Below the pieces are notes generated by a model that saw nothing but the letters and a program-made list of their open reading frames with translations, made no database searches and was not told where the DNA came from. From Gloeopeniophorella convolvens (taxonomy: Eukaryota; Basidiomycota; Agaricomycetes; Russulales): a DNA stretch of 64,000 nt. The stretch covers positions 62,001 through 126,000 of the forward strand of contig WTXD01000064.1 in assembly GCA_022496205.1 (NCBI GenBank). Reading direction: 5' to 3'. The position numbers and the translations under genes are program-made. The stretch's first letter is position 1. Each line of letters begins with the position of its first letter. This document shows, one piece after another, positions 1,796 through 34,302 of this stretch.

Positions 1796-2000
1796 TCAGT
1801 AGAAATTCAAGTTCTCTGGCTCAGGAGAGCGAGCCTCCAGATTCGGCACATGAGCAAGGCCATCTGTAGAAAATAATCAGGGGAACTCAGCGCTGTGGGT
1901 GGCGCAACTTGCATTCGATAGCAGTCGCGGGACGGGCGGCAGTGACGGCTGCCTGCAGCACAAGGACTAAGATAGAAATAGAGGCGACGAGGAAACGCAT
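1796..2000 (-). CDS. small secreted peptide, 51 residues (array member 1)
   Basis: Not a recognised family. Exon 1 (2000-1913) encodes an MRFL start, a hydrophobic signal peptide ending near AVTAA and a short propeptide. Exon 2 (1863-1796) encodes a tail ending SPEPENLNFY. The intron (1864-1912, 49 nt) is phase 1, as in the other members, but would use a GC-AG donor (GCAAGT). With a GT donor two bases further on, the tail loses its resemblance to the family. Exon 1 is 88 nt, exactly as in three other intact members. The mature part has no cysteine. I saw no TATA box at the usual distance. The signal peptide is clear; the splice choice is inferred from the family layout. Confidence 0.6.
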
Positions 2001-2856
2001 TCTGTTAGATGGCAGAGGGTGAACAAGGCGCTGATGGGGGTTCCCGAGTAGAACAACGCTCCGAGGTGCGGCCTTGCCTTTTCAAAGGGCTGGCTAGACG
2101 CCCTAGTGCCTGCTATGGGGGTCACCGTAATTGATCAGTGATGGGAAGCGCGTCCGAATAAAGCTTCGACCTGTCTAGAGATATAGACACGACCTTTCAG
2201 GTAAGACGTATAAAACGTGTTGTTTTGGCCCCACGAGTGGCGGTATCGCTACGACAACCTTGGTTCGAAAAAAAATATGGGGAGGCACGCGCGCACGCAC
2301 GTCAGGCCTCCAGGACGCCGACGTAGATTACAGCACGTCGCCCAACGCCTCCCGAGGGAGTGGTTGTGATGCCGGCGGTCTCTTTTGCGAATGTCAGTTT
2401 TGAGGCAGCAAATCGCTGAATACATGATGAAGTTGAATGATGAAGCCGGTGGCCGGTGGTGGTGGTTCGCTTTCGCTCGCTTTCGGATTGGTCCGGATGT
2501 CGGACCGGGACTGCGGTATGCGGGATCTGCAACACGCAACGTCCGACTACTCCGAGCCTGGCCGAAGCGCCGCCGCGCTCTGCGCAGGGGCGACTTGTCC
2601 CGTACCCAAAGGACTCGGACTTATGCTCGAGACCCAATAAATATCAATGAGGCGCTCTCTGAAGAAGATAGCGTATTGAGATGCATTGAGTCCAAAGCAC
2701 AGAACCTCTCATTCACGCGCTCGGAGTCGCAGGCTTGCTTCGCAGCCCGGTCCACGACATTCCTGCTTAACATCCATCCAACCCTGAGATCCTCTATGTA
2801 TCCTTCTTGTATACGAGCGGAAGGAAAATACCTGTCGAAGGCAAGGCAGAGGTCGG
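2001..2856. other. no gene recognised
   Basis: Overlapping short frames on both strands; nothing with a recognisable domain, signal peptide or splice layout. Confidence 0.45.
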
Positions 2857-3049
2857 TTACTTGTGGGCTGCGATGAAGTTCGCTTCAAGAGGCCGTAAAG
2901 GTCCAGCTGGGCCGCAAAACGTCAGGAGCAAGAAGATACGAGTGAGAGGATGCGAACGGACTTTCAGCATCAGCCTTCGGACTAGTTGGAACTGCCATGA
3001 CGAGGGAAGCGAGAACGATGAGGATAAATGTCACTGAGTAGGTGCGCAT
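2857..3049 (-). CDS. small secreted peptide, 45 residues (array member 2)
   Basis: Exon 1 (3049-2962, 88 nt) gives an MRTY start, a strong hydrophobic signal core and a cleavage-like site after MAV, then PTSPKADAE. The intron (2907-2961, 55 nt, phase 1) joins GAA A to CT GGA. Exon 2 (2906-2857) gives a tail ending in ANFIAAHK, close to the G-F-I-A endings of other members. The product has no cysteine and no CaaX end, so it is neither a hydrophobin nor a basidiomycete pheromone precursor. A TATAAAG lies 78 bases upstream of the ATG. Function unknown; probably secreted. Confidence 0.68.
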
Positions 3050-3126
3050 TTTCGTGGCTGTATAGAAAGCTGATCGGATGCGGTGGCCTGGTGTTTGGAA
3101 CCCATGTAAAGCGAAGGCTTGAGATA

Positions 3127-3133
3127 CTTTATA
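3127..3133 (-). promoter_or_regulatory. TATA box of array member 2
   Basis: TATAAAG on the minus strand, 78 bases upstream of the start codon. This matches the 66-92 base spacing seen before most other genes of the array. Confidence 0.5.
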
Positions 3134-3139
3134 CTCGGG

Positions 3140-5892
3140 AACCTGTGGAGGATGTGGAAGATTGTTGGCGGGAATGTTGGGACGTCGGAAGGATACATCA
3201 GATGCGCCCGTATTCAGCGCGAGAATGTCGAAGACAGCAAATGGCGGGGCATGAACAGATTAAAGACGCCCGAGCACGCTGCGTCCAGACAGTTGGGTGG
3301 AGCGGGGCCCATATGGTGTGCGCAATCGGGTTGACGAAGGTATGTTGAGAAGAGCTGAATACCTTCTCTAAATTAGAATCCCATAGTAAGTTGCAAGGAT
3401 CAGATTACTGGAGTGATTTTATCGTAACGAGGCTTATAGGAAGTCAAAGTTGCAAGGACATTCGACCGTTGTCTATTGCAAGAAGCCAGTCCTGATAAGA
3501 TATGTTGCGTTTTACGTCTTGCATTTCGAATCCCATGAGACATTATGCGGAATGATTGGAGGACTACGATAGCCAGGTAAGGGCGCTCAGAGGGACGATC
3601 TTCCTTTGCTCCGACGGAAGAGACCGCGACAAACATGGGTGATAGATAATTATAGACAGAGAACAACGAAAATTTGATCCATGTAAATGTTTGAGGGTGG
3701 TGAAGAAGCAATTAGTTGTTCTACGGGATGAGCGCCACGATAGTAAATGGGTCCACTGGGCGTTGCACAGGAAGCGGGAGGATTGAATGTCCACTAGTCT
3801 TCCCGGCGAGCGAGATCTTTCCAGCCCCCAGAGCCACCGGGTAGGACTTGGAGTTCTTGAGATAAGTCCGTATGTGCATCAGAAACGGCCCAGTCGGCCT
3901 CCAAGTTCCGAGGAATCCCAAAAATTACTGAGTCAGAAAATAAAACGAGCTTTAGCACGGCATCCTGAGCGTTTTCCAGGCCAGTATCCTGGCGGAAATC
4001 CTTCGGTCTGCACGACACGCAAGCGAGTTGAGTCGGTTAATTGAACCAGAGCGACCAGAGCGCGGGTAGCGAGTCGAAATTATCGGAGTCCGTCTATGAT
4101 ATGAGTGGGAAACTGAAGGTCGCAGCAACGGCGCTAGCCACCCGAGCCGCCGGTCGGGCTGGTCACGGGACCTTCTCGCTTCACCTCATTTACCGGCACT
4201 CCCGGGTGACGCGAATCAGTGATCAAACGCTCATCATCATCTCGCCAGCGAGCTCGTCGCTCGTCGCCGTGACTCCATACACATCCTCCAGCAAGCCTTC
4301 CGCGACTCTTTGACTCTTCCCATGGAACTCCACAGGTTTTCTCTGCTATGCGCTCAATGTCCTGCTACCATCATGTTGTTGCATTAGAAGGTCATGCTAT
4401 TTTCAGCAGCGCTACTGGGCCATGCCCACCATTATGGCCCACCATCCATGGCTCCTCCCTGCTCCTTACATACACCATCCGCGGTGGGCGTCGCACTATC
4501 CTCCGTACTGGTGGCTTCGTTCAGATGTGCAAGCCTGGCAGTGCAGGGCTATGAGTGATGATCTCGCTGGAGGCTGGCCATCCCCGTGGCTGAGCTGTCT
4601 GCCTCCATACAGCGCGGTAGATAGATGACACTGGGAGCCCGAAACCGTTGCGCAGATCTTTGCTGATCATCCATCATGTCTTCCTATCCGCTAACGTGGG
4701 TTTCGTTCTCATGAGTTGTACCTCGGCTGACCCTGATTCAACGAAGAAGACTAGGTATTCTTGACCATCTTGCGCTTCGTGACGCCTCCTCTTTGGATCA
4801 CCGCATTTGTACGACAGAGTCAGCTCTTTCGTTGTGAGTTAGATGGAATGAAAATACGAGGGGTGCGCTGGTATGACCCGTGCCTTGCGTGGCACTGTCG
4901 ACACATGCATGTAAACAAGCGGTCCGAAGCAAGCTTTCAATCTACTCGATCTCTGTCAATACCCTGTAGAGTCCGCGGGGTTACAGATTGTACCTATCTA
5001 CACGCAGATGATACCTGTGGCTCGGTCGAGGGGCTAGGGTTCATGGGAATGGGTAACCCCGCTCAGCTGGGCTGAGCACCTTCTGACTGCTGAAGCGCTG
5101 ATGGACCGTCGTGTCAGTCAGGGCGAGCGGCGACATCGGATTGTTGGCTTATCCCGTCAGGCACCGCCCAGCAAAGAAGTGATCCTCTTTCATTTTATAT
5201 TTCTCAATTGATTAGACCGTACAAACTAATCTCAGGCCTTCCCATTCCGAGTCGTATGTGGCCCGACGTGCCATTCTGTCTGACAGTCATGACAGTACGA
5301 CTTCAAACCAACTTTTAACCGTGGTGCTCGCCTCCGGACAAATACGTAAGTATACTGGGAGGACCCATGGACGCCCCGGAAAAACCTATCAAGTGGACCT
5401 CTGCAGCGTTCTATTGGACCCGGGACCAGCTCCTCCTCTTTGAATATGAGATACTATAAGAGCACTTCTTCGACGTGTGATACTTGATGAACCATCGGTC
5501 TCTCGTACACAGGTGACCTGGCTTCGACACTTCGAGCGCCCAAGCGCCGCAACTTACCCAGGTGCGTATCATTCGCTCCCACTTGGTCTGTCACTGAGGC
5601 CAAGACTTGTTTTGATAGTGGGTTGTCTATTTTTTCCTCGATGCGCTCAACGCCCGACTCCGCGACAGGATTCATATCCAGATGCACGAGGCGTTGCCCA
5701 CTTATCGGTGGGCGTGGCACGTTCACACGCCGAATGATGGCCACCACATTGGGGCATCATCCGCACGATTATATGCGTACTTAAGAGCCAGTCACTAGGG
5801 GAGCGTGGTTCTCACCCCATCCTCGGCGTCTTGCCATCCACTGCCGTGCGCGGTACTGCAGCCTCACCTACTTCACGAGCTCGTCCGCCGCC
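3140..5892. other. no gene recognised
   Basis: Several open frames of 60-110 codons on both strands, none with a known domain or consistent splice pattern. I looked for further members of the peptide array (MR start plus hydrophobic run plus phase-1 intron) and found none. Confidence 0.45.
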
Positions 5893-7338
5893 ATGTCCGA
5901 CCAGGCTGCTGAGATCGCCGCGTTGTATCTCTCGTACAAAACGGCGGTGTATGACAACTTATTCGTGGGGATGGTATTTGGTGAGTGCATAGATATCTTA
6001 TGTTGGCCGAGCTTATTTGTACCATTAGGGGCATACGTCGTGCTCTATGCCGTCTCGGTCCATATACTTCTGTAAGATCCACTCCTTGATCAAAAAAGAG
6101 AACGTTCTCACCTTTCGGTTGCGACGATAGGAGGAAGCCTGGGTTCCTTTCCTCGACACCAAGGCTTTTCATGTTCGGCATCACGACCTTCATGTTTCTC
6201 CTGTCAATCATCGCGCTCGCGCTGGAAACAGCACTGGGGTTGCAGCAAATTATTCTTCAGCTTAACCCTACAAGCGGAGGCATCTGGTCGTCGAGTCGCA
6301 CCAATGTTATCATTGCTGTCGGCGCGACTATCACACGCATCATGGTGGGCACCCCCATTGCCCATACTGCACAGACACTAAGTAGGAAGCAATATAGTAC
6401 ATCCTCAGCGACGTTGTCTGCGCCTGGCGTGCTGTCGTGCTATGGAACAGAGACAGACGCGTCATCGCCATTCTTTTACTCTTTATTCTCGGCACTATGG
6501 GTGCGTATGGGTCACCGAGGACGTTCATTATCCACTTATCGAATCTCCTGCTTCTAGCTGCCGCTGGATCCGATCTCGGTCTTAGCCTGGTCCCTCTGTT
6601 CAACCCATCCCACCAAAGCATCCAGGACTCTAGCAATACCAAGCTTGGAGAGCGCGCAATGATCATGGTTGGCCCGACGTTGGGCACGAACCTGCTCTCT
6701 ACGGGACTCATCGCATGGAAGGCTTGGTGCGTGTTGGCGGATCCTTTCCGCCTCGTTCTGATCACGCCTTCTTTAGGCAACATCGCGTTTCCGTCCGGAA
6801 ACACTTGGGCGATGGAAGCGCTCCCATCAGGGTTGAAAAGATTCTCGCGCTGCTCATCGAGTCCGGATTTGTGTACTGCTGCCTCTGGGTGAGTCCTGTC
6901 TATAGTGGGAGAATCTATCTCGGGGACTTACGGCGCCGGCGCAGATTCTATACCTCATCTCAGCTTTCCGCGTGTTCCCCGAGCCCGGATTCACCATTAT
7001 GGACGCTGTCTTGCTCTTCGCTTCGGTGAGTTCCGCGGACGCTCCACGGTTGTCACAGGGCCGGGCCGCTGACGCTGACTCGTGCTGTGCAGGGATTGTA
7101 CCCGACCCTCATCGTCATCCTGGTCTGTATGCAGAAGAGCCCTGTCGACTACTACTCGACCTACTCGACTGGGATCCAGTTCGCGACTGTACCGGTAGTC
7201 GACACGCAGAAGGCAAGCGTCGTGCAGCAACAGCAGCACATATACTCCATCCGCCGCGAGTACCTGTCTGACTCTGACACGCAAGTACCGTCTGCAACGT
7301 TCGGGAAGGCGTTAGATGGCAGTGAAAAGAGCGTGTAA
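5893..7338 (+). CDS. multi-pass (about seven-helix) membrane protein, paralogue A
   Basis: Starts MSDQAAEIAALYLSY, followed by about eight short exons. Recognisable exon pieces in order are LFVGMVFG, AYVVLYAVSVHILL, a block with ALETALGLQQIILQLNP, then VCAWRAVVLWNRDRR, ILLLFILGTM, KLGERAMIMVGPTLGTN, IESGFVYCCLW, ILYLISAFRVFPEPGF and GLYPTLIVILV, ending with a polar tail GKALDGSEKSV. Every hydrophobic block matches the gene at 23,894-25,328 in the same order, so the two are paralogues. Similar membrane proteins of unknown role are common in agaricomycetes. A receptor-like topology is possible but not shown. The exon boundaries chosen restore the shared frame; some are approximate. Confidence 0.75.
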
Positions 7339-7602
7339 TCCACTGCTGGAGTCCAGCTGTTATATGTACCGAGTGCGATCTACACCGTCGCTCATTTGTG
7401 TAATCTTCAAGTCTGTCTCACGTCGTAGTCTAGGCTGATATTATTATACGAATAACATGGCATCTACCGGTTGTCCTGGCAGCTCCACGGAAGTCGAAAA
7501 TACATGGACCGAATGTGAAAGGAACGGCACTAATAGTTGTAGGTTATAGACGCCAGGTATGTTGCCATTGGGCAGACCGCGCTGGTCGCTACATAATAAA
7601 GC

Positions 7603-9816
7603 TCAGCTAGAAATTCCCGTCTGTTTGCTTGGCTCCCACTCCCCGGGACCAAACCCGCGCGGCCCCAAGGCGTCATCCACAACATGCATCATGGCAAGGA
7701 CGCGCTCCTCCTCCCAAGGGCGCCCAACGATCTGTATCCCCACAGGCAAGCCATGCATCGCCTTGGGGTTGTATGCGCCCTTTGGCCCATACATGTCCTT
7801 CTCGATGAGCTTCGAGCCCGATCCTGGGCCGTTGCGCCATGCATCTGACAACGCATCCTTCTCCGCGTCGACGCGAGTGACGGGAACCACGCCGACCGGG
7901 CTGTCGACAATGTTGTACAGGATGGTGGCCGCAGCAAGCGGTGAAAGAGTGTCGCACCCGCCGTGCGGTACCGCAGGCAGGGCTTGCACCGGGGCCAAAA
8001 TCGCGTCGAAGGTTTGTCCGTCCGCTTGTGGGCCCCAGACCGCGGCACGCCAGCGCCGCTCGAATGCGAGTTTCTCAGCGGTGAGGTCGTAGTATTGCCT
8101 CACGGGTTTGACGTGGGATCGGGATAGCAGGCGCGCGAATATTTCGTCACCAACAAAGGTACGGGCAACCCAGCCAACCAGCGAGAGAACGAAAGCTACG
8201 GTCGCAGTCAGAATGAGCGTCATGGCTCCGAGCGAGGAGACAAAGATGGACTTTGCACGCACAGGGGAGTCTTGGTCCGAGTGTCACCAAGAAGAGAGCT
8301 GATTCCTGTTGAGAACGCATAGTAGGTGAGATGTGAATGTCACAAATCCTGAGACAAAGTATACCTTCTTATCTGGCCCTAAGTGAGAAAGCATCGTTTT
8401 GTAGCCGTCCGCTGACGTTAATGCAGTGAAAAGCTCCATTGCGTGCATTGCTGGAACGGAGAATCAGTACAGGTTCCAGCATGATACTGTGAGGAGTCGT
8501 ACGTTCTGGTGGCTGGAACTCGATACATTCATGCCCGGCACCGCGCAGTTTTTCGACAGTCTCCAACACTGCGCGTTGGCATGCTGGAGAACCCTTCACA
8601 AGGCCATCTGTAACAATTCTAGTCAGCACTATGGAAACGTAAATGTGGATCATCCAACCAGAGAGATAGTACGCGAATCTGAGCTTCTGGGGGAGCTCAA
8701 CGTCGAGATACGGTATAGGTGGAGGGAACTGAGCGTCGCCGCGAGCGCCAAATAGGACCCTCGCCGCGAGCTCTAAGTCTGCTACCGAACGAGCCAGCGG
8801 ACCTGAAACAACATCTATAGCCTGGAAGCCAGGGTTCGGGTCTGGCGAGGCTAGGTCAATGACATGAGCAACGTAGAGCGATTATTACGCACCCCTGGCC
8901 CCTTCACAGGAGATGCGCCCGTGCCCGGGCTTGAGGCCGTATATTCCACAGTATCCAGAAGGTGTACGAATGCTGCCACCGATGTCTGTACCCATCCCGA
9001 GCGCTGATCCGTCTGCAGCCAGCAGAGCCCCTTCGCCACCCGACGAGCCGCCGCTCGTATGTGCGGCGCTCCATGGGTTCAGCGTGCGGCCCCAGAGCGG
9101 GTTGACACTCTCGAACGCAAGCATGGTCTGGGGAACATTCGTTTTGGCGATCAACACCCCACCTGCAGCTTTCAGGGTGGCATAAATCTGTTGGTGTCAA
9201 GTCAATATTCATCTTGAATCGGTTCGGCCGAAACACATATACGCACGACCGAGTCCGAGGTAGCAGGCTTGTTTGCCCATTGGGTATAACCAATGGTGCC
9301 GTCATACCCGGCCACATCAACTGCGGGTACGTCAGCCTATATGATGATCTCAACCGGCTTGGTAAACATACATAGGTCCTTGAGGCTAAACGGCACACCA
9401 TGCAGCGGCCCCCGCAGCTTCCCCGTTGCAGCGAAATCTCGGTCCAGCTCTCGAGCCACCTCACGTGCATCATCGAAGAGGACTGCAAAAGGTTGATAGG
9501 GCTGGACTCTACAGAGAGAGTAATACGCACTTTCGGTCAGACAGTTCGTCGCAGCATGAGCCTGTGCCGCGCGAGCGATGTACGCCTCTACCACCACCAC
9601 CGCCGTCCACTCTCCTTTTTTGATTCGTTGAACGATTTGCGTCGCTTTATCAAGGTTGAGATGACAGGCATACATCACAAATATGAGAAACGGACCTGTG
9701 GCATCTGTGAACTGCTTGTGTTCAGGTTGGAAAGCTGAAGCGCTCGCCAGCGCATCGGCGCGCTCCTTGAGCTTCTTGTCGATGATGGGACGCGCCGAAG
9801 ATTCGAAAGGCCACAT
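7603..9816 (-). CDS. amidase (amidase-signature family), probably membrane-associated
   Basis: Amidase-signature hydrolase of the acetamidase / fatty-acid-amide-hydrolase type, which cleaves carboxylic amides with a Ser-cisSer-Lys triad. At least seven exons. The N-terminus is MWPFESSARPII. The catalytic Lys lies in GVPFSLKDL, the cis-Ser in TSGGSSGGEGAL and the nucleophile Ser in GTDIGGSIRTPS. The C-terminal block includes NIVDSPVGVVPVTRV and GLPVGIQIVGRPWEEE, both family hallmarks. The last long exon begins with a hydrophobic stretch (SLGAMTLILTATVAFVLSLV), seen in many fungal members and suggesting membrane attachment. All three catalytic residues are present, so it should be active. It sits inside the peptide array on the same strand as its neighbours; any link to the peptides is speculation. 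Confidence 0.88.
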
Positions 9817-10423
9817 GCTGAAAACGGATGAGAATCAGGCTCAATGGAATATTTAGTCCTCCTTGTGCAACGGGAAGGATCGTGTGGATGGTGCTCGTCT
9901 CTGCGGTTGAAACGTTGAAAGTGGGAAGCTGAGGACGCGACCGTGACTACGCGTATTTAACTGCTCTACGTGGGTATACCACCGAAGTCCCACGCTTCAA
10001 GCGACGGTGTGATGCTAAATGTGCCAGCCCTGAAGGATATGTGAAGTTGATATAGGAGTTGATACCCAAGGCCCTAGCCGCGGATGGTGGTGAGCCGCAA
10101 CCTCGCGCCGACTCCGTGTCTGGTCGGCCCTGGTCAGCCGCGGCGCAACAAGGCGGGCCGAGACTTGGTACGCATGCAGGCACGTGCAGGCGCGTGCAGG
10201 CTCGATCATCCGCCGGCCGTCATATGCATGGGCCCCTGGTCCGGCATGTGAACGCTCAAGTTGTCATCCCAAGTCCAAGCCTCGCCGTGACTTGAGCTTG
10301 TTTTCAGGGAGTACGGTATGTATGCTCGTTCGTGACGCGTGAACCTGTAAGGAGTTTTATCCGTGGTTCATCTGTTAAAATCTGGCGCGGCAGGCTCGGT
10401 GTCCGCCAAGTCGACTAGATTTC
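9817..10423. other. intergenic, upstream of the amidase
   Basis: No supported gene. It would contain the amidase promoter on the minus strand. Confidence 0.45.
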
Positions 10424-10566
10424 CATGCACGATCCAAAACCTTCGACCGTAAAACATGGCAACCCCATTCAACCATCAGTTCCTACAACAGGCCAGACTA
10501 TTCTTTCAGTCAGATCTCAGCATTCTCCCCACATCCTTCGACTCATGGCCCGGGGCACATTCACCT

Positions 10567-10756
10567 TTACCACGAGGCAAAAGGTTCGTCTTCAACGGGA
10601 GCAACAGCGGCCGCAACTGATATGGGCGGCGCACGTCAGTAGGCAGCTATAACAATTTCGGTGGAGGCACCCACCCTCAGAGTTCTGGTTAGTGGCAGGC
10701 GAGGCGGCTGCAAGGGCAATGACGGCGAAGAAGAAAGAGATGAAGAGGCCGCGCAT
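10567..10756 (-). CDS. small secreted peptide, 43 residues (array member 3)
   Basis: Exon 1 (10756-10675, 82 nt) gives MRGLFISFFFAVIALAAASP, a textbook signal peptide, then ATNQNSE. The intron (10617-10674, 58 nt) is phase 1 with a GTGGGT donor. Exon 2 (10616-10567, 50 nt) gives VAAAVAPVEDEPFASW. The paralogue at 13,371 has the same intron length and position and an exon 2 starting with the same AAAV core, which supports this model. An upstream in-frame ATG at 10,774 would add six residues (MPSTLN) before the signal core; I prefer the MRG start because the signal peptide begins there. The product is cysteine-free and ends in Trp. Function unknown. Confidence 0.78.
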
Positions 10757-10837
10757 GTTGAGTGTCGATGGCAAGAGATGAAGCGTGCTCGAGTCAGGTG
10801 TGACCGGTGCTGAGAGTGTGAAGGCGATGGCTCTGTC

Positions 10838-10844
10838 CTTTATA
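10838..10844 (-). promoter_or_regulatory. TATA box of array member 3
   Basis: TATAAAG on the minus strand, 82 bases before the ATG, conserved at the same spacing in duplication copy B. Confidence 0.55.
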
Positions 10845-12183
10845 TGGTGCAGAGAGTCCAGTGTAGCTTATTCCATGCAGGGCTCCGGAGAGATAGCATG
10901 AAAGGTAATTCGAGGAAGAATCGAATGCTAAGAGCCGCGCTATCTCATCTCGTACCAAGATGTTCCCAGGGTCAGTCGATGGTAATGACATAGAAAAGAA
11001 AGGAGCGAAGGCCGCCGCGGGCCCGCAGACACAGCTTCCTTCCGCTTCAGCGAATACTCCTTCCTCACCTCCAGGAGTACCCAATACGAAGCTCGATACA
11101 ACTCAGACTGTTAGAGCGCACGTGGCGGAGAAACTATGGTGGCGTGACCAGAACGTGTGAACCATCCATGGCACCGCACTAGCCTGGTTTGATCCCCTTT
11201 ATTCAATGTGATGGGCTTTCTCCGCCAGTGACCGACCCTTTCTGCGAACTGAAAGGAGTGTGCATCATCGGAGTCGCCGAAGCCATCAAGGACGTCGAAG
11301 GCGACGCTGAAGCAGGAAGGCGTTCCGTATGAGAGGGGCTCAGAAGCTGCAAGCCAAGTACATAGATATTGTATGAGCCAGAAGGATTTCCTGATACCAT
11401 CGGGGGATGGAGGCGGCGTAGCCGCCTGCGCGAGGAGAGAGGAGAGTTCGGGCGCTTACCCCGTTACCTTTCCGGTCAGGGCTGCCTACGTGCCCGTGAT
11501 CCTGCCGTCCCGTGACCCTGCCTTTTTTCGCCTCCAGATTCAATGTCCAGATTCCTATTCCAACGACCAGCACGTTAAGTTCAAAGGGAGAACAGCAAGC
11601 TCAATGAAAAGGCGAGATAAGCGATTGCGTAGTGTGCACAAGAACCTGGAATACCACACTACGATAAGACAGTAGAGAAGCAGAAGCGAAGCAGCAGGAA
11701 CAGTCGGTGTCATTGCACAAATAGCTACTGGCGGTAGAGCTTCCAATTATTGTATTCTGACAGCGAGTGTTGTGCCTAGTACAATGCCGCGACGGTCGTA
11801 GGAGAGAACGCAACCTTTCTGAGAGAGACCCTGAGGATTGGTCGTGGAGCAAAGTTCTCAAACCATCAGAACAGTGCGTCCATCGAGGCGGCTGTCAGCC
11901 ACTTTGCCTAGCTATCGCCATTATGTATTTGCCGAAGACTTCGGCCCCCGGTAAGAGTAAAATGTCCAACCCGCCTCGAGGGAGAGAAACTACAGAGCTA
12001 GACCGGTGGCGCGATAGCGAGCGAGAACGACGCGAGCGATAGCGCAAGAACGAATGAGCGCGAGAGTGAGAGCACATACGCGACCAAGAGAGGGTGCGCA
12101 GGGAGAATGGGGACCCCAGGGGCGATGATACTGCAGGGCTCCCGCCTTGCCTACCGTCGCTGAGAAGAGGATCATCCCGGAGG

Positions 12184-12210
12184 CCCCCCCTCCCCTCCCC
12201 TCCCCTCCCC
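12184..12210. repeat. short CCCCT tandem repeat
   Basis: A C-run followed by four TCCCC units. Simple sequence with no assigned role. Confidence 0.7.
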
Positions 12211-12278
12211 AAATAGCGGTCCCCGGGGAAGAGGGCCGTGCAGCCAGGGTCTCTGCAGGAGATACGTGCGTATTAATA

Positions 12279-12642
12279 CTAAGTACTAGGACTTTGCACT
12301 ACGTGTGCAATGAACTCACCTTCGTCCAAAGAGTCTGGGAGGTCCTCGCCATCTCCCAGCGCGTCCTCGTCCCCTCCATCGAAGATGTCCGGTAGTAGCT
12401 GCCGTCGCTTAGGAGATGCTGAAGGTGCGTCTTCTCTTGCATGTTTTCGTGTAGCGGGCGCGCGCGCGTGGCAGCGCTCGCATCCCCCCGGTACGCTTTG
12501 TCTGCCTTCCGCGCAGCGACGCAATGTCTTGCTCGAGATGCAACGGCGCAGTCCTCGGGAGCTGCGAGAGAGGTGCCAGATCGAAGAATCTGCACCTCTG
12601 ACAGTCACAGGGGACGGGAATGAGGTCGTACTTGGGCGGCAT
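12279..12642 (-). pseudogene. possible transposase N-terminal fragment (Plavaka-like)
   Basis: Starts MPPKYDLIPVPCDCQRCRFF with a C-x-C-x-x-C cluster. After a frame change or intron, the next part carries a basic SPKRRQLLP patch and an acidic DGGDEDALGDGEDL stretch. This arrangement resembles the short amino-terminal region of Plavaka-type transposon proteins in basidiomycetes, but no catalytic domain follows. It lies between the two copies of the duplication. It could equally be an unrelated short gene. Confidence 0.25.
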
Positions 12643-13178
12643 GGGGAAGACGCGAGGTGGATATGACTTGGGGGCTACAGCAAGGTCGTAACTTCGCGAA
12701 ACCGGTGGACTGCGGCCTCTTGGTCCTTAAGTGACCGGATCTCGACAGACGAGCGATGGACACATCTTCCGTCACATAGGTCCACGGACGAGCTTCATTC
12801 CATACCCCCTTAGAACAATTGACTGAAGTTGCGGCGAGCCTGCATATGCGCACCACATTGGATCGATCGACAGTTCCGGACGGGATCTATGACCGAATTG
12901 TTGGAATGTATATTTCGGGCCAGGTGTGAAAATAAGCTGGGCGTACTTTCTCAGCACGTGGAGAGGTCGCGTCGCGCGAACTCCGGGAACGATTAAGGCC
13001 CGCGAACCGCGTCCGATACCAAATTGACTACATATATTTTCATGCATGGTTTACAACCTTCGACCATAGAATATGGCAACTCAGCCATAATTTCCTACAC
13101 CAGACCAGATTTCTCTTTCAGTCAGACCTCAGCAGGCTCCCCACATCCTTCGACTCATGGCCCGGGGCACTTTCCCCA

Positions 13179-13371
13179 TTACCACGGGGCGGAGACGACG
13201 CTGTCTTCAACGGGAACAACAGCGGCCGCAGCTAATACGGGCGATAAATGTCAGTAGGGAGCTATGGCGGTTTCAGTGGAGACACTCACCCTCAGCATCC
13301 TTGTAAGGAGCTGGCGAGGCAGCCGCAAGGGCGATCACGGCGAAGAAGAAAGAGATGAAGAGGCCGCGCAT
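13179..13371 (-). CDS. small secreted peptide, 44 residues (array member 4)
   Basis: Exon 1 (13371-13290, 82 nt) encodes the same signal peptide as member 3 (MRGLFISFFFAVIALAAASP), then APYKDAE. The intron (13232-13289, 58 nt) is phase 1 with a GTGAGT donor. Exon 2 (13231-13179, 53 nt) encodes AAAAVVPVEDSVVSAPW. Member 3 and this gene differ mainly in the propeptide and the last seven residues, while P-V-E-D and the terminal Trp are kept. The product is cysteine-free. Function unknown; secretion is predicted. Confidence 0.8.
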
Positions 13372-13451
13372 GTTGAGTGTTAGTGGTAAGAGATGAGGTG
13401 TGCTCGAGTCAGGTGTGATCGGTGCTGAGAGTGTGAAGCGATGGCTCTGCC

Positions 13452-13458
13452 CTTTATA
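13452..13458 (-). promoter_or_regulatory. TATA box of array member 4
   Basis: TATAAAG on the minus strand, 81 bases before the ATG, in the same surroundings as in copy A. Confidence 0.55.
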
Positions 13459-21394: not shown

Positions 21395-21399
21395 AGCGT

Positions 21400-23893: not shown

Positions 23894-25328
23894 ATGTCTT
23901 CGGATCCTCTGGCAGCGGAACTTCTCGAGCTCTACGCCGCGTACAAGTCGGCAGTCTATTGCAACCTCTTTGTTGGCATCGTCTTCGGTACGCCACCGCT
24001 CGTCATGTGGTCAAATTTCGCGCAGCTGATGCCTGACGCCCTTCAGGCGCGTATGTCGTCCTCTACAGCACGTCGTTGTACATTCTTCTGTGAGCACGCC
24101 AGCCTGGCATCGTTTGCCTATGTTGCATCGTCCTCATACCATCCCAGTCGTCGCGATGGCCTCCTGCGCTCCACCCCACGCATGTTCATGCTTTGCGTGA
24201 CGAGCACGATGTTCATCCTGGGCCTGGTTGCGCTCGTGCTCGAAACAACGCTCGGCCTCCAGCAAATCATCATCCAGCTCAACCCGAGCAGCGGCTCCAT
24301 CTGGTCGTCCCACCGCACCGACGTCGTCATTGCCGTCGGCGCGACGATCACGCGGATCATCGTGAGCCATTTTCTGCATTTGGTGTTCTGCCACGTTGTT
24401 GAGCCAACGCTTCTTTTCCTCCAGTACATCATGAGCGACATCGTTTGTGCATGGAGAGCGTCTGTGCTCTGGAACCATGACAGGCGCGTTATTGCGTTGC
24501 TCACGCTCTTCATCCTGGGAACGATGGGTGAGCACGTTTCCTCCCCCATCGGGTAGCCAGGTTGCTGACGCGCCCTAGCTGCTGCGGGGTCCGATCTCGG
24601 GCTGAGCCTCCGGCCGCTCTTCTCCCCCTCCCATCACTCCATCCAGGATGACAGCAACAGAAAGCTCGGCGAGCGTGCGCTGATCATGGTCGGGCCCACG
24701 CTCGGGACGAACGTTCTCTCCACCTCGCTAATTGGAATCAAAGCGTGGTGGGTGCCTAGGCCTTGGCCCTCTCATTTTCTGCCGTCCTGACAATGAGTGC
24801 AGGCAGCACCGACGCACCCTGCAGAAGAACCTCGGTGCGAGCAGCGCTGCGATCCGGATAGAGAAGCTTTTTGCGCTCCTCATCGAGTCTGGCTTCGTGT
24901 ACTGCTGTCTTTGGGTAGGCAGCTCGTCTTCTTTGGGGTGTCTCCGTTGCTAACCATTTGGGACACAGATCCTCTACCTCATCTCGGCTTTCCGCGTCTT
25001 CCCTGAACCGGGCTTCACAGTCATGGACGCCGTCCTTCTCTATGTCTCGGTACGCGTGCTTCCGTTTGATCCTCATCCACCTTGCTGACTGGATCGCGCG
25101 CAGGGCCTTTACCCAACGGTCATCATCATCTTTGTCCTCCTTCACAAATCGCCGTCATCGGTGATAACCGACGCATACTCGACGAGCACGGACTTCTCAC
25201 GTCGCCCTGAACTCACGACCGTCGAGGCGCGGATGCCCATGTCGGCTGTGTACATGCAAGGCAACTCGTATGCCGACTCGGAAGACACCGCGCTGCCCAG
25301 CAGCCCGCCCTTCAAAAGCAAGCAGTAG
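23894..25328 (+). CDS. multi-pass (about seven-helix) membrane protein, paralogue B
   Basis: Starts MSSDPLAAELLELYAAYKSA. Exon pieces in order are NLFVGIVFG, TSTMFILGLVALVLETTL, GLQQIIIQLNPSSGSIWSS, YIMSDIVCAWRASVLWNHD, LLTLFILGTM, AAGSDLGLSLRPL, KLGERALIMVGPTLGTN, LLIESGFVYCCLW, ILYLISAFRVFPEPGFTVM and GLYPTVIIIFVLLH, then a Ser/Thr-rich cytoplasmic tail ending SSPPFKSKQ. It is the clear paralogue of 5,893-7,338, sharing intron positions and nearly every helix; the tails differ most. The role is unknown; multi-pass proteins of this kind in mushrooms are usually left uncharacterised. Some exon edges are approximate. Confidence 0.78.
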
Positions 25329-27304: not shown

Positions 27305-27537
27305 ATGCGCGCCTTCGGCGCTTCTCTGTACCTTCTCCTTGTACTCGCCGCTATCACCACGGCACAGCCGCTCAACCTCCAGAGGAGAAGTAGGATAGAG
27401 CCGGAGGTGCGTCCCCGCAAATAACGTCGCTCTTTTTGCTCCCTAACTCCCTTTTGTGGTTGTTCTTGAAGTATGCCACCGCCTGGAATAATACCGGCTT
27501 TTTCGCGCGATCCTCGATCAAAGAGAGACTCGCTTGA
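27305..27537 (+). CDS. small secreted peptide, 55 residues (array member 8, divergent)
   Basis: Exon 1 (27305-27406) encodes an MRAFGASLYLLLVLAAITTA signal peptide, then QPLNLQRRSRIEPE. The intron (27407-27471, 65 nt, GTGCGT donor, GAAG acceptor) is phase 0 here instead of phase 1. Exon 2 (27472-27537) encodes YATAWNNTGFFARSS plus a short basic end. The T-G-F-F-A core matches members 5 and 12. QRRS offers a possible dibasic processing site, which other members lack. The signal peptide is strong; the splice model is less certain than for the phase-1 members. Confidence 0.55.
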
Positions 27538-27808
27538 CCTCATCAGAAGCTGGACGACGAGGCATCACGGCGAGGTAGGGTCGCCGACTCTGTTCCTCCA
27601 GTCGTCAAGTGGCAGATACACGAGGGCGCATGGGTATTCCTAAGGGTACGGTGGGGGGGAAGGGCCGTTTAATTCCCGTCGGTACGATATCGAAGACGGA
27701 CCCAAATCGAGACAATGCTGGAACCATGCTGTAGGCAGAGAAGCCTCCGCTGGGAATAAACATGGAAGTAAGGCCCACGCCGACGCCTGAACTCCGGGGA
27801 GCTCGTGC

Positions 27809-27815
27809 TATAAAG
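27809..27815 (+). promoter_or_regulatory. TATA box of array member 9
   Basis: TATAAAG within TATAAAGCCCTCTG, 83 bases before the ATG. The same 14-base string stands before member 10. Confidence 0.6.
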
Positions 27816-27891
27816 CCCTCTGTGGTCTTCCGACTGGTAGCACCACACCGCTAACCAATCTTGCTGACGGCCATTTCAAGTATTCACGATC

Positions 27892-28113
27892 ATGCGCTCC
27901 TTCTTGACGCCTCTTGTCGTTCTTGTGCTGTCCGTTTTTGCTGTGGCGTCTCCCCTTACCACGGAGGACAGGGCTGAAGGTAGTATTGTGTTTTTACTTG
28001 CCTCGACACTCTTGCTCAAACATGCGCGTGACCTAGCCTTGGATTTATCCCTTGCTGCTAGCCCGGACACGAGTGGGTTCATCCCCGTTAGTGCGCCCCT
28101 AGGCTCAGGGTGA
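27892..28113 (+). CDS. small secreted peptide, 54 residues (array member 9)
   Basis: Exon 1 (27892-27979, 88 nt) encodes an MRSFLTPLVVLVL signal peptide and the propeptide PLTTEDRAE. The intron (27980-28036, 57 nt) is phase 1 with a GTAGTA donor and CTAG acceptor; its length is a multiple of three and it has no stop, so an unspliced frame of 73 codons also exists. Exon 2 (28037-28113) encodes ALDLSLAASPDTSGFIPV and a short tail. A-L-D-L-S-L and S-P-D-x-S-G-F-I recur in member 10 only when both introns are removed, which supports the spliced model. No cysteine. Function unknown. Confidence 0.82.
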   Translation: MRSFLTPLVVLVLSVFAVASPLTTEDRAEGSIVFLLASTLLLKHARDLALDLSLAASPDTSGFIPVSAPLGSG

Positions 28114-29239
28114 GGGAACTCGGCCTGCATGGCGGGTAAGTGGCCTGCGCTGTTGTTTCCTTCCAGACGAACTCACGCAGCAGTTCGACAGGAAAGCTTC
28201 TTCCAAGGGTTGTCTGTCAGTGACGTCACCTGATTCCTGTACGAAAGGGTGGTTTCTTGTGTTCTCTCGGATCAGGAAAGTGCAATAATGATGTAGCTGG
28301 CATACTTGTGCGTGACGGTCCATCATAAAGGGCTAGTGATATTCGGTGGACATAGAGAGTACGATCTGAAGTAATCTTTCACCCATTTGGTAAAGACTTT
28401 TCATTCCTTCGAGGGTGCAAGATACTGGTAACTGACTGTACACTAACCATGCTGTCCGTATTGCGTCTGAAGATGCAGCGCACACCTCTGATTGACGCCG
28501 TATGGTTTGGGGAGCACTCTAGCGACGTCACAATAGTCCATATAGCTTTGCCTGACTTACGTTATCGGCGTCGACCTAAGCAGTCTGAATACTTACCATC
28601 GAATAAGTATCCCAATTCTGAACGGCTGCTTGGGGTCGCTATTGGGTGCAGCGAGCAAAAGCTGGCGCGTCTGGGAGATAGCCGTGGCGGGATTTCCCGA
28701 AGCGTCGCCCCGACTTGGCTCCGAACATGACTGTGACGGAACCGTAACGGCAGGTTCGAGCGAGTCGTAGACTTCGCGCCTCGCACCTTTTTGCGTCTCT
28801 TTCAGTCTGAAGCTAATAATAGCCACTTTTTCACTTTCATCGGCGCCCTTTCTTGATCCAGGCACATCGGAGAACCCGGGTTCTGCGGCCCTAGCGCGCA
28901 AACCCTGAACAGTAACTGGTACCGGTACCATGATAGTGAATAATCCCCGAGATCAACTTGTTGCATCATGAAGATGAATTAGTCTGTTCATGGACAAAAG
29001 CTTGAAAGTCATCACGATTCTTTGATGGTCAGCTGGAACGAGTTCTCTCACCTTGATCTTTACATACTCATGCCGCGTTACCGACCAGGTCCCGTCGGAT
29101 TGACTCCTTCATTGTTCATTCATCCGGTCTAGCGACAGCTTCTGCCATCTGTCAACTGGAGTTTATCCCATGGGAAAGCTGCGCGTGGTGCCGCTGTATT
29201 CGTAACTCTGAAACTATGCCAATATCATGCATCTTGCGG
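28114..29239. other. intergenic between array members 9 and 10
   Basis: The first bases after the stop contain a GGCGGGTAAGTGG block also found after member 11, so the duplicated unit extends into the 3' flank. No other gene is supported. Confidence 0.45.
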
Positions 29240-29246
29240 TATAAAG
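29240..29246 (+). promoter_or_regulatory. TATA box of array member 10
   Basis: TATAAAG within TATAAAGCCCTCTG, 75 bases before the ATG, identical over 14 bases to the box before member 9. Confidence 0.55.
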
Positions 29247-29314
29247 CCCTCTGCATCCCGAAAATTCATCAACAGTACACCACCTTCACTCATAAGCAGA
29301 CATTACTGGTTGCA

Positions 29315-29524
29315 ATGCGTTCGCTCTTGACACCGTTCGTCGTCCTTGCGTTGGCCGTTTTGCTGCGGCGGCTCCCCTTGACGCAGGAGACAGGGCCGAA
29401 GGTACACTTGAGTCGCTCTTACCCTTAGCCACGCTCTCTCACGCGCATTGGTCTAGCGTTGGATCTATCTCTTGGCGTCAGTCCTGATGTGAGCGGGTTC
29501 ATTGCACACAACAACGCGGACTGA
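29315..29524 (+). pseudogene. small secreted peptide gene broken by a one-base deletion (array member 10)
   Basis: Exon 1 (29315-29401) starts MRSLLTPFVVLALAV and then loses one base, so the downstream part is read out of frame. It is 87 nt long where members 1, 2, 9 and 12 have 88. The intron (29402-29456, 55 nt) keeps its GTACAC donor and CTAG acceptor, and exon 2 (29457-29524) still encodes ALDLSLGVSPDVSGFIAH plus five residues in the family frame. TATA box, intron and tail are all intact, so the lesion looks recent or may be a read error. It is the closest relative of member 9. Confidence 0.75.
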
Positions 29525-30688
29525 GGGAGTCTGTAGGTAAGCATTTGCATGATTGCTCGCCACCAGATGAACTCATCTAGTAATTCGACAGGGCACTTCT
29601 GAAGGGCCCGACGATGTTTCTGGACACCGTATGGCCTATATGTTCTTGTATTCTCTTGGTACCTCTGGATATTGAAGCATTTTTAGCTTTTGGGCGTACT
29701 GTAGTCGTGACTTTTGGTATGAATATAGCACCGAAGTTACAAGTATTCCTGCTATTAGCGCCGTAACGCGGCTGCGCCTGATATATCGACATGTTGCGTC
29801 CCTGAAGTTGTTCGGCTTTTGAATGGAATAGAGTGTACGTCTCTCGTCTAAATTACCGCAGATGCGAGAAGCTGCCTCGTAAGCAAGAGAAGGTAATGTT
29901 CGTGCGGAGCTTTGGCTCGGTGAGCAGTATACATAGAACGCAGTTTCGTACGTTGGCTAAGCGAGCGCTCGCATGACGTAATTCCGAATTGAAGGGTTCC
30001 AGCTAAAATCAATTGTTTAGTCCAGATACACCTACGTTATTGAATGCCTTGCGGGCGAGATGCTGCAAGATGTTGGACTTCGGAAGAAATCTGCCTCGGA
30101 GGTGCTGCTGACTCCGTTGGCCATTGGGCACCGCCTAAGCGGCATTTCCCGAAGCGCCGTCTCAAACGACCAGGGCCGTTCGCGCCGCAACTGGTGCGTC
30201 GTCTGTCAACACATCCCATACTCCTTCCAATATGAGGATAATGGCATTCACGCCTTCACCTACGTCGGGATTCTGTCCGCCCCGAATTGGAGAGCTCGGA
30301 TCCTTTGGATTTACCACCAGGCCCCTGAAGCTCCACATTGCAATTCCCCGTTGTCCCGCCCACGGTGTGCACTGTGCATCGATATCTCATTGCGGTGAAT
30401 CAGTCTAAACCAGGGATAAAATCCGACCATCAAGATTAACAACCGGTCGGTTACGCGGTGGAGCAAGCATACAACCACACAGGGCCTATCTAGGCTTGGG
30501 CTACAGCGTCAGCAAGCGATTCCGTGTCAGGCCGGGCCCCCTCATCCCGCCCCTGACACGGACAGCTTCTGCCAGCCACATATCAACCAATTGCCGTCCA
30601 TGACAGTTACGAATGGTGGCGCCGGCATGAGCGCGGAGTCTTGTACTTAGCGGCGTTGGGGGTTATCTTAATGCCGTGTTGTCAGCTC
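29525..30688. other. intergenic between array members 10 and 11
   Basis: No supported gene. Short plus-strand frames near 30,044-30,398 show no domain or signal peptide. Confidence 0.45.
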
Positions 30689-30694
30689 TATAAA
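30689..30694 (+). promoter_or_regulatory. TATA box of array member 11
   Basis: TATAAA, about 70 bases before the ATG. Confidence 0.5.
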
Positions 30695-30759
30695 TTTGCT
30701 GTCTTTTTCCCGGTTAGCGGCAGACACGACACCTGGAATCCCAACCATCAATTTCTACC

Positions 30760-30957
30760 ATGCGTTCCTTCCTCAAGACATCATTCGTCGTTCTTGCTCT
30801 CTCTGTCTTCGTTGCAGCCTCTCCGTTCGACATGAAGGACAGAGCTGAAGGTGCTGTCTTCTTTCTTGTCGCCAGTTCCTTGTTCGTTCATGTGTGTAAC
30901 CGTGTAGCGTTCGCTCGCAGTCCGAACGAAGGGGGGTTCATTGCTATCAAAGACTGA
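30760..30957 (+). CDS. small secreted peptide, 46 residues (array member 11)
   Basis: Exon 1 (30760-30850, 91 nt) encodes an MRSFLKTSFVVLALSVF signal peptide and the propeptide PFDMKDRAE; D-R-A-E before the intron is shared with member 9. The intron (30851-30907, 57 nt) is phase 1 with a GTGCTG donor and GTAG acceptor. Exon 2 (30908-30957, 50 nt) encodes AFARSPNEGGFIAIKD, matching the family tail S-P-[D/N]-x-x-G-F-I. The intron has no in-frame stop, so an unspliced 65-codon frame also exists. No cysteine. Function unknown. Confidence 0.82.
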   Translation: MRSFLKTSFVVLALSVFVAASPFDMKDRAEGAVFFLVASSLFVHVCNRVAFARSPNEGGFIAIKD

Positions 30958-32228
30958 GACGGGTTACATGAACGGCGGGTAAGTGGCTAGTGCGGAATAA
31001 CTCTGTCACTTCAACAACTCACCGCCGCTTCCTGTTTTGGCAGGAGATTTCTACCAGTCCATCTTCTCGCAGCGAGCCTACCAAGTTTCATGTCTCCTGA
31101 CAAGTGCATTGTACATCTTTAACTCGACGAATGCGAGAGTCATGATGCGTAAATCACAATGCATGACGCAAGACACACCTTTTGTTTGCGATGCCATCTT
31201 GCAGTGCATATGTATTTGCTGGCCGCAGAAAGCAAACGGAAGTACGGCGTGCTCTACAATCCCGCGCTTCAAGCTTCAACAGTCACTGCAGACGTTCGAA
31301 GTCAGAGTCCAAGGGTTCCCGTCTGGGCACTGGACCGGCCGAGAACAGGATTTCAGTGCATAATCCGATCCCCGTCGCTGGATATTCCAAGCTACTGCTT
31401 TCATTACTCGTAGATTTTCTCGTAAGAGGTTAATCTTATCCTTCTTGATCGCGCTCTGACGAGATATCGAGGATGTCGTAGCGTGTGAATATGCCCGTAT
31501 CGTCAGCTTTGTAACACGATTACTCTCTTCATGGGGGCGTAATACGATGTCGGCGTGCCTACGCGTCCTTTCGATCCGAAACCCTGGGATCGAAGATTCA
31601 AGGGAGCTTGTCAGGAAAAGGTTTGGGTAGATTCGCTACTGTTGCACTATTCTGATCCCTCAGTTTCTTCATATGACCATGCCAGCTGACACATTGGCCA
31701 TGCCAGAGCGCGGTAGGGATTGAGTGGAGTCCTGCATCGTTTTCGCGCACCGATTGTTACTGATTGCAGTAGTAACTTCTGACTACGCGTCCTCTCGGCT
31801 GCCGGAACTTACATACCTTGTTCTCCGAGCCGAAGCTTCGGTGCTCCAGAGGAGAAAGCCTGTTAGTGCCGCATTTCTCTTCAATGTCGACCCTCGCTCT
31901 GATCAGGAACCTCCCAACGATACAGCTTTCAAGGTCTACCTGACTTGATATACCATCTTCGCGGTACCAGCTCGAGAATTCGTTCTGCAATGGGCATGGG
32001 ACTTGATGCCGCATATGCGATGTGAAGGTGCGTGTGTGGTCATGCCGTCTATTATCGCTGGCGGCGTGGGATCAGGTCAAGCCCCCAGGGATCGATGCCC
32101 AGTCTCGATTCCATAATCTCTGCTTACAGGTTTGTCATAGCGGGTGCGTAGGGAAGGGTGCGGGCAGCATAAAATAGGCGTCGTTACAATGTTTGCTGCA
32201 ACATAGCTCGCGCTCAGATCTGCCCACC
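30958..32228. other. intergenic
   Basis: No supported gene between array member 11 and the Old Yellow Enzyme gene. Confidence 0.45.
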
Positions 32229-33498
32229 ATGTCTACTCCTACCCCAAAGCTCTTCCAGCCGATTCGTGTCGGCGGTCTTGACTTACTGCACCGTGTCGTG
32301 CTGTCAGCGATGTCGCGGTTCCGCGCTGATGCTCAGCATGTTCCTGGAGCGCTCGCCATCGAGTACTACAAGCAGCGCACGAGCGTACCCGGTACTCTCG
32401 CTATCACAGAGGGGACGTTCGTGGCGCCGCGCACTGGCGGCCTCGCTAACGTCCCCGGAATCTGGAACGATGAGCAGATTGCAGCGTGGAGGCCGGTCAG
32501 TATCTACCGCGCCCTTACCTCTGTAACGGATTGTTGATCGCCCTCGCAACGAATCGTCAGATCGTCGACGCAGTGCATACGAACGGATCGTTCATCTTCC
32601 TGCAACTTTGGGCCACCGGAAGGTGCGCTACTGCCTCGGTCCTCGAAGAGGAAGGCGAGTATCCCCTCGTGTCGGCCAGTGACATTCCCTCCAAAGACAA
32701 AGACATCCCGCGCCCGCTGACGATCGAGGAGATCAAGGAATACGTGCAGCTATTCGCTACGGCTGCGGAGAACGCGGTTGCCAAAGCTGGCTTCGACGGC
32801 GTGGAGATACAAGCTGCCAACGGTTACCTCGTCGACCAGTTCCTGCAGACTGTTAGCAACACCCGCACCGATGAGTATGGCGGCTCTGTCGAGAACAGGG
32901 TACGCTTCGGCCTCGAGATCGTCGACGCCGTGGTCAAAGCTGTCGGCGCTTCCAAGGTTGGGGTCAAAGTGAGTCCTTGGACGACCTACCAAGGTGAGAT
33001 AAGATACGTGTCATTATTCCGTGCGTCGTAGTAACGGTTTTCTCGCACAGGGATGGGAATGCCGGACCCAGTCCCTACCTTCACAGAATTAGTCACTCGC
33101 ATCCAGGAACGCTACCCCGATTTCGCGTATATACATGTCCTCGATCCCGACGTTTCTTCGAAGCCAGAGAGTACCGGGGAGAGCAGCACACCTCCGTCTA
33201 CCAAGTTCTTGCGCAACATCTGGGGAAATAGGGCATTCATTGCCAACTGCGGCTTCGAGCGAGATACCGCGATAGAGCGCGTAGAGAACGAAGGCGGTCT
33301 TATCTCGTTTGGACGTCACTTCATTTCGAACGTATGTTTTGCTTCACCGTATAAGAGAGGTATTTACTGATGCGCTGATCACAGCCGGATCTCCCACACC
33401 GCTTGAAGAAAAACATTACCCTTGCGCCCTACGACTTCAAGACTTTCTATACGCCCGGGGCTGCCGGGTACACTGACTACCCTGCCGCCGAGGCGTGA
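32229..33498 (+). CDS. Old Yellow Enzyme family NADPH:flavin oxidoreductase
   Basis: An FMN-dependent TIM-barrel enzyme that reduces activated C=C bonds with NADPH. Four exons, the first at 32229-32495. Recognisable blocks are FQPIRVGGLDLLHRVVLSAM, EYYKQRT, FLQLWATGRCA, GFDGVEIQAANGYLVDQFLQ, RTDEYGGSVENRVRFGLE, VSPWTTYQGMGMPDPVPTF and GGLISFGRHFISN. In the substrate pocket, Old Yellow Enzymes carry H-x-x-N or N-x-x-N before G-Y; here it reads Q-A-A-N-G-Y, so the first ligand-binding His/Asn is Gln. The Tyr proton donor is kept. Length and order are otherwise normal. It lies between peptide-array members 11 and 12 on the same strand. Ene-reductases of this family often serve as tailoring enzymes in fungal gene clusters; that role here is inference. 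Confidence 0.88.
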
Positions 33499-33504
33499 AT
33501 TGAG

Positions 33505-34026
33505 CGGAGGGCCTGAACCGTCTATATCTCCGGGAAACTGTGGTACATGTAGCTGATACGATTGAATAGGATGGAATGGTATCTGATAGTTCATGTGCAC
33601 GTGTTGTGCCTGATACATCAGCCAATCAACGTCAATCTATGCGCGCCACCATGCGCTGGCATGCGAGCGGGGTTAAAGACAAATTGCGGGGTACCTACGT
33701 TGACACTGGGAAATGCTCGTTGAATCAAGGTGTCCTGGACGCATTGCGGGCCCGGGACAAGGCGCAGGGAGCCACTCGTGTACGCCGCAGCATACTCAGG
33801 TGTGAGACTACAATTACACTACGGCCCATCTTAAGGTACAGAAGGATACGATGAAACACAGTGCAGAGCGGCGCCTGACTATGGGTTCCTGAAGCGAGGC
33901 GCTGAAGGCCTGAATTTTCAGGACGGCTACATTGGGCAATTCCGCCACCTTCCAGGTCATTCTGTTCCGGATGCATTCGAGCGACGATACATTGCACCCG
34001 CGGAGGGTGGGACGCCACAGGATGTG
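33505..34026. other. intergenic
   Basis: No supported gene between the Old Yellow Enzyme gene and array member 12. Confidence 0.45.
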
Positions 34027-34033
34027 TATAAAA
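34027..34033 (+). promoter_or_regulatory. TATA box of array member 12
   Basis: TATAAAA, 75 bases before the ATG. Confidence 0.5.
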
Positions 34034-34101
34034 TCAGCATGCACTCCGGTTCATGGGCACTACAGGCAGACATCACCCTTAGTCGACACCAGCTTTCAAT
34101 C

Positions 34102-34302
34102 ATGCGCACATTCTTTCTGAAATTCCTCCTTCTGGCGCTCGTTGCCGTCGCATCGGCAGGTGACGTTGCTCCCGAAGACAAGGCCAGAGGTGACGAAAGA
34201 TATAGTACCTCCCTCAGTGACGGACCGCTAACGAGCCATGCGAGAGCAGATGTCCCTTTAACCCCTGATGAGAGCGGCTTCTTTGCTGTTAACAGTGATT
34301 AG
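34102..34302 (+). CDS. small secreted peptide, 47 residues (array member 12)
   Basis: Exon 1 (34102-34189, 88 nt) encodes an MRTFFLKFLLLALVAVASA signal peptide and the propeptide GDVAPEDKAR. The intron (34190-34246, 57 nt) is phase 1 with a GTGACG donor and GAGAG acceptor. Exon 2 (34247-34302, 56 nt) encodes ADVPLTPDESGFFAVNSD. The tail closely matches member 5 on the other side of the locus (P-[D/E]-E-[S/T]-G-F-F-A-V-N), and exon 2 has the same length. The unspliced frame is also open. No cysteine. Function unknown; predicted secreted. Confidence 0.82.
   Translation: MRTFFLKFLLLALVAVASAGDVAPEDKARGDERYSTSLSDGPLTSHARADVPLTPDESGFFAVNSD

Follow-up and report, generated by a model that had tools for sequence, protein, structure and literature searches.

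An array of small intron-split secreted-peptide genes around a UstYa pair in Gloeopeniophorella convolvens, candidate single-core precursors of UstYa-type peptides

The dikaritins (ustiloxin, phomopsin, asperipin-2a, victorin) are among the described systems closest to the one reported here, a dispersed array of tiny secreted-peptide genes that contains a pair of UstYa/DUF3328 oxidase genes in the wood-dwelling basidiomycete Gloeopeniophorella convolvens (Russulales). The array lies in a stretch of 64,000 nucleotides, hereafter the window, corresponding to positions 62001-126000 of a 142-kb contig (C366) of the 36.7-Mb genome. As in the dikaritins, DUF3328 genes, paired here, occur with secreted precursors and short aromatic cores. 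The array differs from them by one core per candidate precursor, by the lack of Kex2 repeats in the window, by many precursor genes with a phase-1 intron, by the lack of any tyrosinase or S41 peptidase match on the contig, and by its basidiomycete host. The MSDIN cycloamanides and the borosins are comparable as ribosomally synthesized and post-translationally modified peptides (RiPPs) of basidiomycetes with small precursors. No secretory signal is known from MSDIN and borosin precursors, whose processing relies on POPB or on a fused methyltransferase.

In ascomycete dikaritins, UstYa homologues cross-link tyrosine residues (PMC6514808, PMC7329392). The Kex2-processed repeat proteins (KEPs) of Agaricomycetes resemble the array by their signal peptide and short secreted peptides (PMC7329392, PMC9769878), and their layout is present in this genome in a precursor on contig C45. 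Unlike KEPs, the peptides of the window are free of repeats, and dibasic sites occur in just two of them, so that KEP mining would miss them. A single-core DUF3328 precursor has been proposed for two lichen clans, with no precursor identified in the accessible text (PMC12048977); these clans likewise have UstYa genes without a nearby repeat precursor, whereas in the array candidate precursors are seen. In a survey of 1461 strains, only 103 of the 1680 repeat precursors from basidiomycetes had DUF3328 genes nearby, and the survey did not decide whether cyclization is nearly absent in this group or the motif is a different one (PMC7329392); Pleurotus alone has 16 UstYa-like genes (PMC8893723). 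The array supplies candidate UstYa substrates in a layout invisible to repeat-based mining, and it suggests an overlooked raw material for a modified-peptide family in mushroom-forming fungi.

The peptide genes of the window

Peptide genes are named by the position of their ATG in the window, and genes elsewhere by contig and position. Splice sites of the models were picked by hand, and signal peptides were judged from hydropathy alone, as hydrophobic N-termini. The twelve genes of the original prediction, one of them broken, were all located, in a span from 1796 to 34302, with seven ATGs on the minus strand (2000 to 17519) and five on the plus strand (27305 to 34102). Together with their homologues elsewhere in the genome they give 23 gene models, 21 of which are intact. 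The eleven intact window products have 43-64 residues and start, as had been claimed, with MR and a hydrophobic N-terminus. For parts of C366, the second haplotype appears to be present on contigs C52 and C41.

1796-2000, minus strand: peptide gene 2000, 51 residues, GC-AG phase-1 intron, tail SPEPENLNFY; the C52 copy is identical
2857-3049, minus strand: peptide gene 3049, 45 residues, phase-1 intron with the weak donor GTCCGT, tail RPLEANFIAAHK; TATA box at -84, C52 copy identical
10567-10756, minus strand: peptide gene 10756, 43 residues, tail APVEDEPFASW; tandem paralogue of 13371
13179-13371, minus strand: peptide gene 13371, 44 residues, tail VPVEDSVVSAPW
14934-15138, minus strand: peptide gene 15138, 51 residues, tail EPEETGFFAVNGKK
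16290-16538, minus strand: peptide gene 16538, 64 residues, tail QPDFEGFFPP...; identical to the public protein BC834DRAFT_974008
17319-17519, minus strand: peptide gene 17519, 48 residues, tail KPEPAKPDHFPEHH
27305-27537, plus strand: peptide gene 27305, 55 residues, phase-0 intron, tail AWNNTGFFARSS...
27892-28113, plus strand: peptide gene 27892, 54 residues, tail SPDTSGFIPV...
29315-29524, plus strand: broken peptide gene 29315, frame lost in exon 1, end set by eye; the tail exon still reads SPDVSGFIAHNNAD, and the intact paralogue is C366:31772
30760-30957, plus strand: peptide gene 30760, 46 residues, tail SPNEGGFIAIKD; paralogue C366:30499
34102-34302, plus strand: peptide gene 34102, 46 residues, tail TPDESGFFAVNSD; paralogue C366:27162

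This twelve-gene array belongs to a real family of spliced genes under purifying selection, which we regard as very likely. In ten paralogue comparisons in the spliced frame, with some genes reused, the ratio of replacement to silent differences (pN/pS) was 0.14-0.51, and 0.37 when summed; over eight comparisons the summed values were 0.36 (exon 1) and 0.35 (tail exon). Counts of silent/replacement differences in the tail exon of the two closest pairs are 8/3 in the chosen frame and 2/8 and 3/6 in the shifted ones, all of them small numbers. All nine second-haplotype copies examined keep an open spliced frame, with an in-frame length change in the copies of C366:18529 (one codon) and 10756 (six codons). 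A TATA box was found at -125 to -45 in 14 of the 23 models and at 110 of 2209 window ATGs, a background that includes the window genes, and the public annotation of gene 16538 is exactly the hand-made splice. A strict finder recovered 5 of the 12 window genes with no other match in the window (35-64 kb was empty) and gave 1 match in 20 simulated 64-kb sequences; it misses the remaining 7 and two genes at C366:18-20k, and therefore measures specificity and not completeness.

These results bear on the possibility that the models are chance signal-peptide-like open reading frames joined at hand-picked splice sites. The reading frames are indeed short, the splices manual and the donors of 2000 and 3049 weak; yet pN/pS is far below 1 in the spliced frame with a signal mostly gone when the frames of the two nearest pairs are shifted, and the open haplotype copies, the TATA placement, the public splice of 16538 and the low background of the finder all speak for genes. 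This explanation is already largely contradicted, and we consider it hardly credible.

The intron described as conserved is in phase 1 in 21 of the 23 models; 27305, with a phase-0 intron, and the broken gene 29315 are the exceptions. The tails are free of cysteine, as stated, in every model (two cysteine residues of 16538 lie in its signal peptide), in line with the view that the genes code neither for CaaX pheromones nor for cysteine-rich effectors. The motif P-[DEN]-x-x-G-F-[FI] was found six times in the six-frame translation of the window, exactly in the six genes for which it had been claimed; it is absent from 2000, 3049, 10756, 13371, 17519 and 27305, the last of which has NNTGFF without proline. 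We searched also the 36.7 Mb with the tail DNA pattern P-[DENK]-x-x-G-F-[FI], which gave 54 matches against 30 for the reversed-pattern control. Eight of the matches are on C366 (expected 0.21, P ~7e-11), all eight inside array genes, and 2 are on its allele; the matches on C376 and C386, the 2 looked at among the 44 off C366 and C52, showed no signal exon within the 2 kb scanned. Among the 21 intact models, the core proline is kept in 20 and P-x4-[FYVI] in 18, with F or Y at that position in 14, and every tail has at least one aromatic residue.

The family proved, as anticipated, to be mostly unannotated and split by its introns: protein profile searches with 13 and then 21 peptides matched only the annotated member of the window itself. 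One of the 21 intact genes was found among 5.8 billion proteins, in a search that works with no more than 100 short words and may have overlooked others. A Pfam scan of seven family peptides gave no family above the cut-off, and the Pfam and NCBIfam matches were sub-threshold at most.

GTAAG donors follow directly after the stop codons of 27892, 29315 and 30760 (at 28130-28170, 29535-29595 and 30975-31045), as noted by eye, and an extra intron in the 3' untranslated region is possible there. Genes 10756 and 13371 lie on a tandemly duplicated segment of about 2.6 kb (window 10272-14313 and C52:16354-18402). The haplotypes diverge by about 20% across 10.3-12.4 kb, with flanks 97-99% identical. 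Copies of 34102, 30760 and 29315 are present on the opposite strand at C366:26-32 kb, an arrangement that points to an inverted segmental duplication inside C366.

UstYa genes and their peptide neighbours

19648-20263, minus strand: UstYa1, UstYa/DUF3328 oxidase gene 1, PF11807 with 52 bits, hand-spliced
20632-21394, plus strand: UstYa2, UstYa/DUF3328 oxidase gene 2, PF11807 with 48 bits; public protein BC834DRAFT_974011, end set by eye from the public protein

The two UstYa genes form a divergent pair inside the peptide array, and both are above the Pfam cut-off. UstYa2 exhibits an N-terminal helix and both HxxHC motifs. UstYa has no sequence match among solved structures, and the predicted model of UstYa2 is poor (predicted local distance difference test, pLDDT, of 54); a scan of viral contigs with a UstYa relative from Lactarius gave no match. 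UstYa2 has relatives in Lactarius psammicola (BJY52DRAFT_1175690), Russula dissimulans (BC827DRAFT_821088) and Lactifluus volemus (BGW80DRAFT_606136). In the genome, PF11807 has 19 matches on ten contigs. As C52 and C41 look allelic to the C366 sites, this corresponds to nine separate UstYa sites, with C7, C18 and C370 counted separately. Outside the window and its allele, UstYa2 is matched best by a gene at C366:21.4k with its allele (51%) and by one on C268 (40%). The main matches elsewhere reach 25-35%, and a single piece of 51 residues at C101 has 40%. UstYa1 has its best match on C268 (45%), followed by C7 (35%) and C366:21.4k (29%), and two short pieces at C101 (41-43%).

Peptide arrays were found at three sites, namely the window, C366:21.4k and C268. 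The UstYa gene at C366:21.4k is flanked by six more MR peptide genes. On C268, five open reading frames starting with MK or MQ lie within the same 30 kb as a convergent UstYa pair; four of them were modelled, and the fifth, at 102673 on the minus strand, has no splice model and stands outside the 23 models. The C268 tail, P-x-P-N-x-[VI]-F followed by a stop, has 3 matches in the genome, all in the C268 array, and its reversed control has 1. A three-repeat Kex2-type precursor on C45 lies 6 kb from a UstYa pair and has a signal exon and a phase-1 intron as in the array genes. From the grouping of peptide genes around UstYa genes at three sites, and from the layout shared with the C45 repeat precursor beside another UstYa pair, the array probably consists of single-core, non-repeat precursors of UstYa-type RiPPs.

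The peptides might instead leave the cell unmodified, as linear signals or effectors with a pheromone-like or defence role, with UstYa acting elsewhere or standing there by chance. Such a role would agree with the lack of a long tandem repeat in window 1-36000 and the near absence of dibasic sites, with the distance that separates part of the peptide genes from UstYa, and with the seven-segment paralogues, possible receptors, of the same array. It is however less easily reconciled with the position of the arrays found, at three UstYa sites that are those closest to UstYa2, or with the repeat precursor of the same layout at the C45 pair. The strict finder, too, gave 0 matches in 49 kb without UstYa (C366 42-62 kb and window 35-64 kb), a control that is weak because of the array genes that the finder misses; its one other match is at the UstYa site C18. 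We consider the unmodified linear peptides rather unlikely.

The original prediction had presented the genes as a dispersed peptide family, and this interpretation stands, but it overlooked the UstYa pair, the members outside the window and the sister array at C268. No description of such precursors was found in the literature searched, which held few subscription papers and no bioRxiv preprints. The statement that no described family has such a layout has to be narrowed, because the UstYa pair in the array and the arrays at C366:21.4k and C268 bring the layout near a known kind, the dikaritin-type RiPPs.

Putative maturation of the peptides

In the single-core precursor model, each gene would code for a signal peptide for secretion, then a short leader up to the conserved phase-1 intron, and one C-terminal core, which in the majority of genes is built on P-x-x-x-x-[F/Y/V/I]. 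This precursor would enter the endoplasmic reticulum and Golgi and meet there the membrane-anchored UstYa pair, which would oxidatively modify aromatic residues of the core, probably by a cross-link, before the product is secreted. The many single-core genes would substitute for the multiple cores of one Kex2-repeat precursor, and the core proline and the leader ahead of the intron might serve as recognition features. Modification by UstYa is what we infer from linkage alone, and the chemistry, the cleavage point and the secretion of the product are presumed.

Several observations weigh against this model. DUF3328 proteins function in non-RiPP pathways too (PMC12048977). Tyrosine, the residue cross-linked in known dikaritins, is present in 5 of the 21 tails, where the aromatic residue is mostly phenylalanine. 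A dibasic site beyond residue 20 occurs in 2 of the 21 peptides, in one case at the very C-terminus. The tandem-repeat search of window 1-36000 gave a single row, with a 12-base unit outside the peptide genes, and no long repeat. The first motif of UstYa1 is HQLRC and not HxxHC, the second histidine being missing. The distance between a peptide gene and its closest UstYa gene reaches 17.8 kb. No tyrosinase match was obtained on C366, and no S41 peptidase match in the whole genome.

The tails themselves fit imperfectly, as the tail exons are overall conserved and not hypervariable. The C52 copy of 10756, in the corresponding position, retains the signal peptide with a changed propeptide and tail, which is not a clean pattern of fixed leader and variable core; it is closer to 13371, so that gene conversion is possible. 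No such peptide was seen at the UstYa sites C101 and C388 (20 kb and 10 kb read), and C7, C18 and C370 showed only different secreted open reading frames, with cysteines and weak models. The latter (C7:26823, minus strand; C18:22107, plus strand; C370:80780, minus strand) look alike, have FK near the start and lie beside UstYa pairs; they are perhaps another precursor type.

Other genes in the array

22055-23061, plus strand: membrane protein, ends set by eye, reading frame apparently interrupted
5893-7338, plus strand: seven-hydrophobic-segment protein, paralogue 1, segments counted by eye, end set by eye
23894-25328, plus strand: seven-hydrophobic-segment protein, paralogue 2, ends set by eye

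The membrane protein at 22055, used as a query in a hand-joined reading of the frame-changing gene, gave 12 matching pieces (E<=0.01) on C366, C52, C268, C370, C7 and C18, all of them beside UstYa genes, and no match at C45, C101, C388 or C366:21.4k. Its homologue on C268 has a sub-threshold match to the Pfam family But2 (23.2 bits for a cut-off of 24.2). The change of frame in its middle part may reflect a pseudogene or an assembly error.

A third paralogue of the seven-segment proteins is located near C366:23k, about 1 kb past the UstYa gene at C366:21.4k. With two paralogues in the window, this third one, and the closest copies of the family on C366 and its allele, the locus could be a ligand-receptor module, in which the secreted peptides, modified by UstYa or not, are sensed by the co-encoded seven-segment proteins. 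But the family is large and present also away from the known peptide arrays, no seven-segment protein was found at the C268 array, and the hand-spliced protein matched no Pfam family, which leaves a predicted receptor function unsupported. We judge such a module quite improbable.

A wider proposal, which is possible though doubtful, is that mushroom-forming fungi possess a distinct RiPP class, whose families of single-core, intron-split precursors are acted on by UstYa pairs and the UstYa-adjacent membrane protein, and that the peptides of this locus may also be sensed by the seven-segment proteins. If true, it would explain the rarity of basidiomycete repeat precursors near UstYa genes.

Two enzyme genes lie also inside the array: an amidase on the minus strand, with PF01425 in 7603-8262 and a neighbouring stretch (8904-9530) without match, and a NADH:flavin oxidoreductase on the plus strand at 32229-33498, with PF00724 in 32486-33031. 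Further along the window, the minus strand of 55603-60386 carries retrotransposon open reading frames for gag/protease, reverse transcriptase, RNase H, integrase and a chromodomain.

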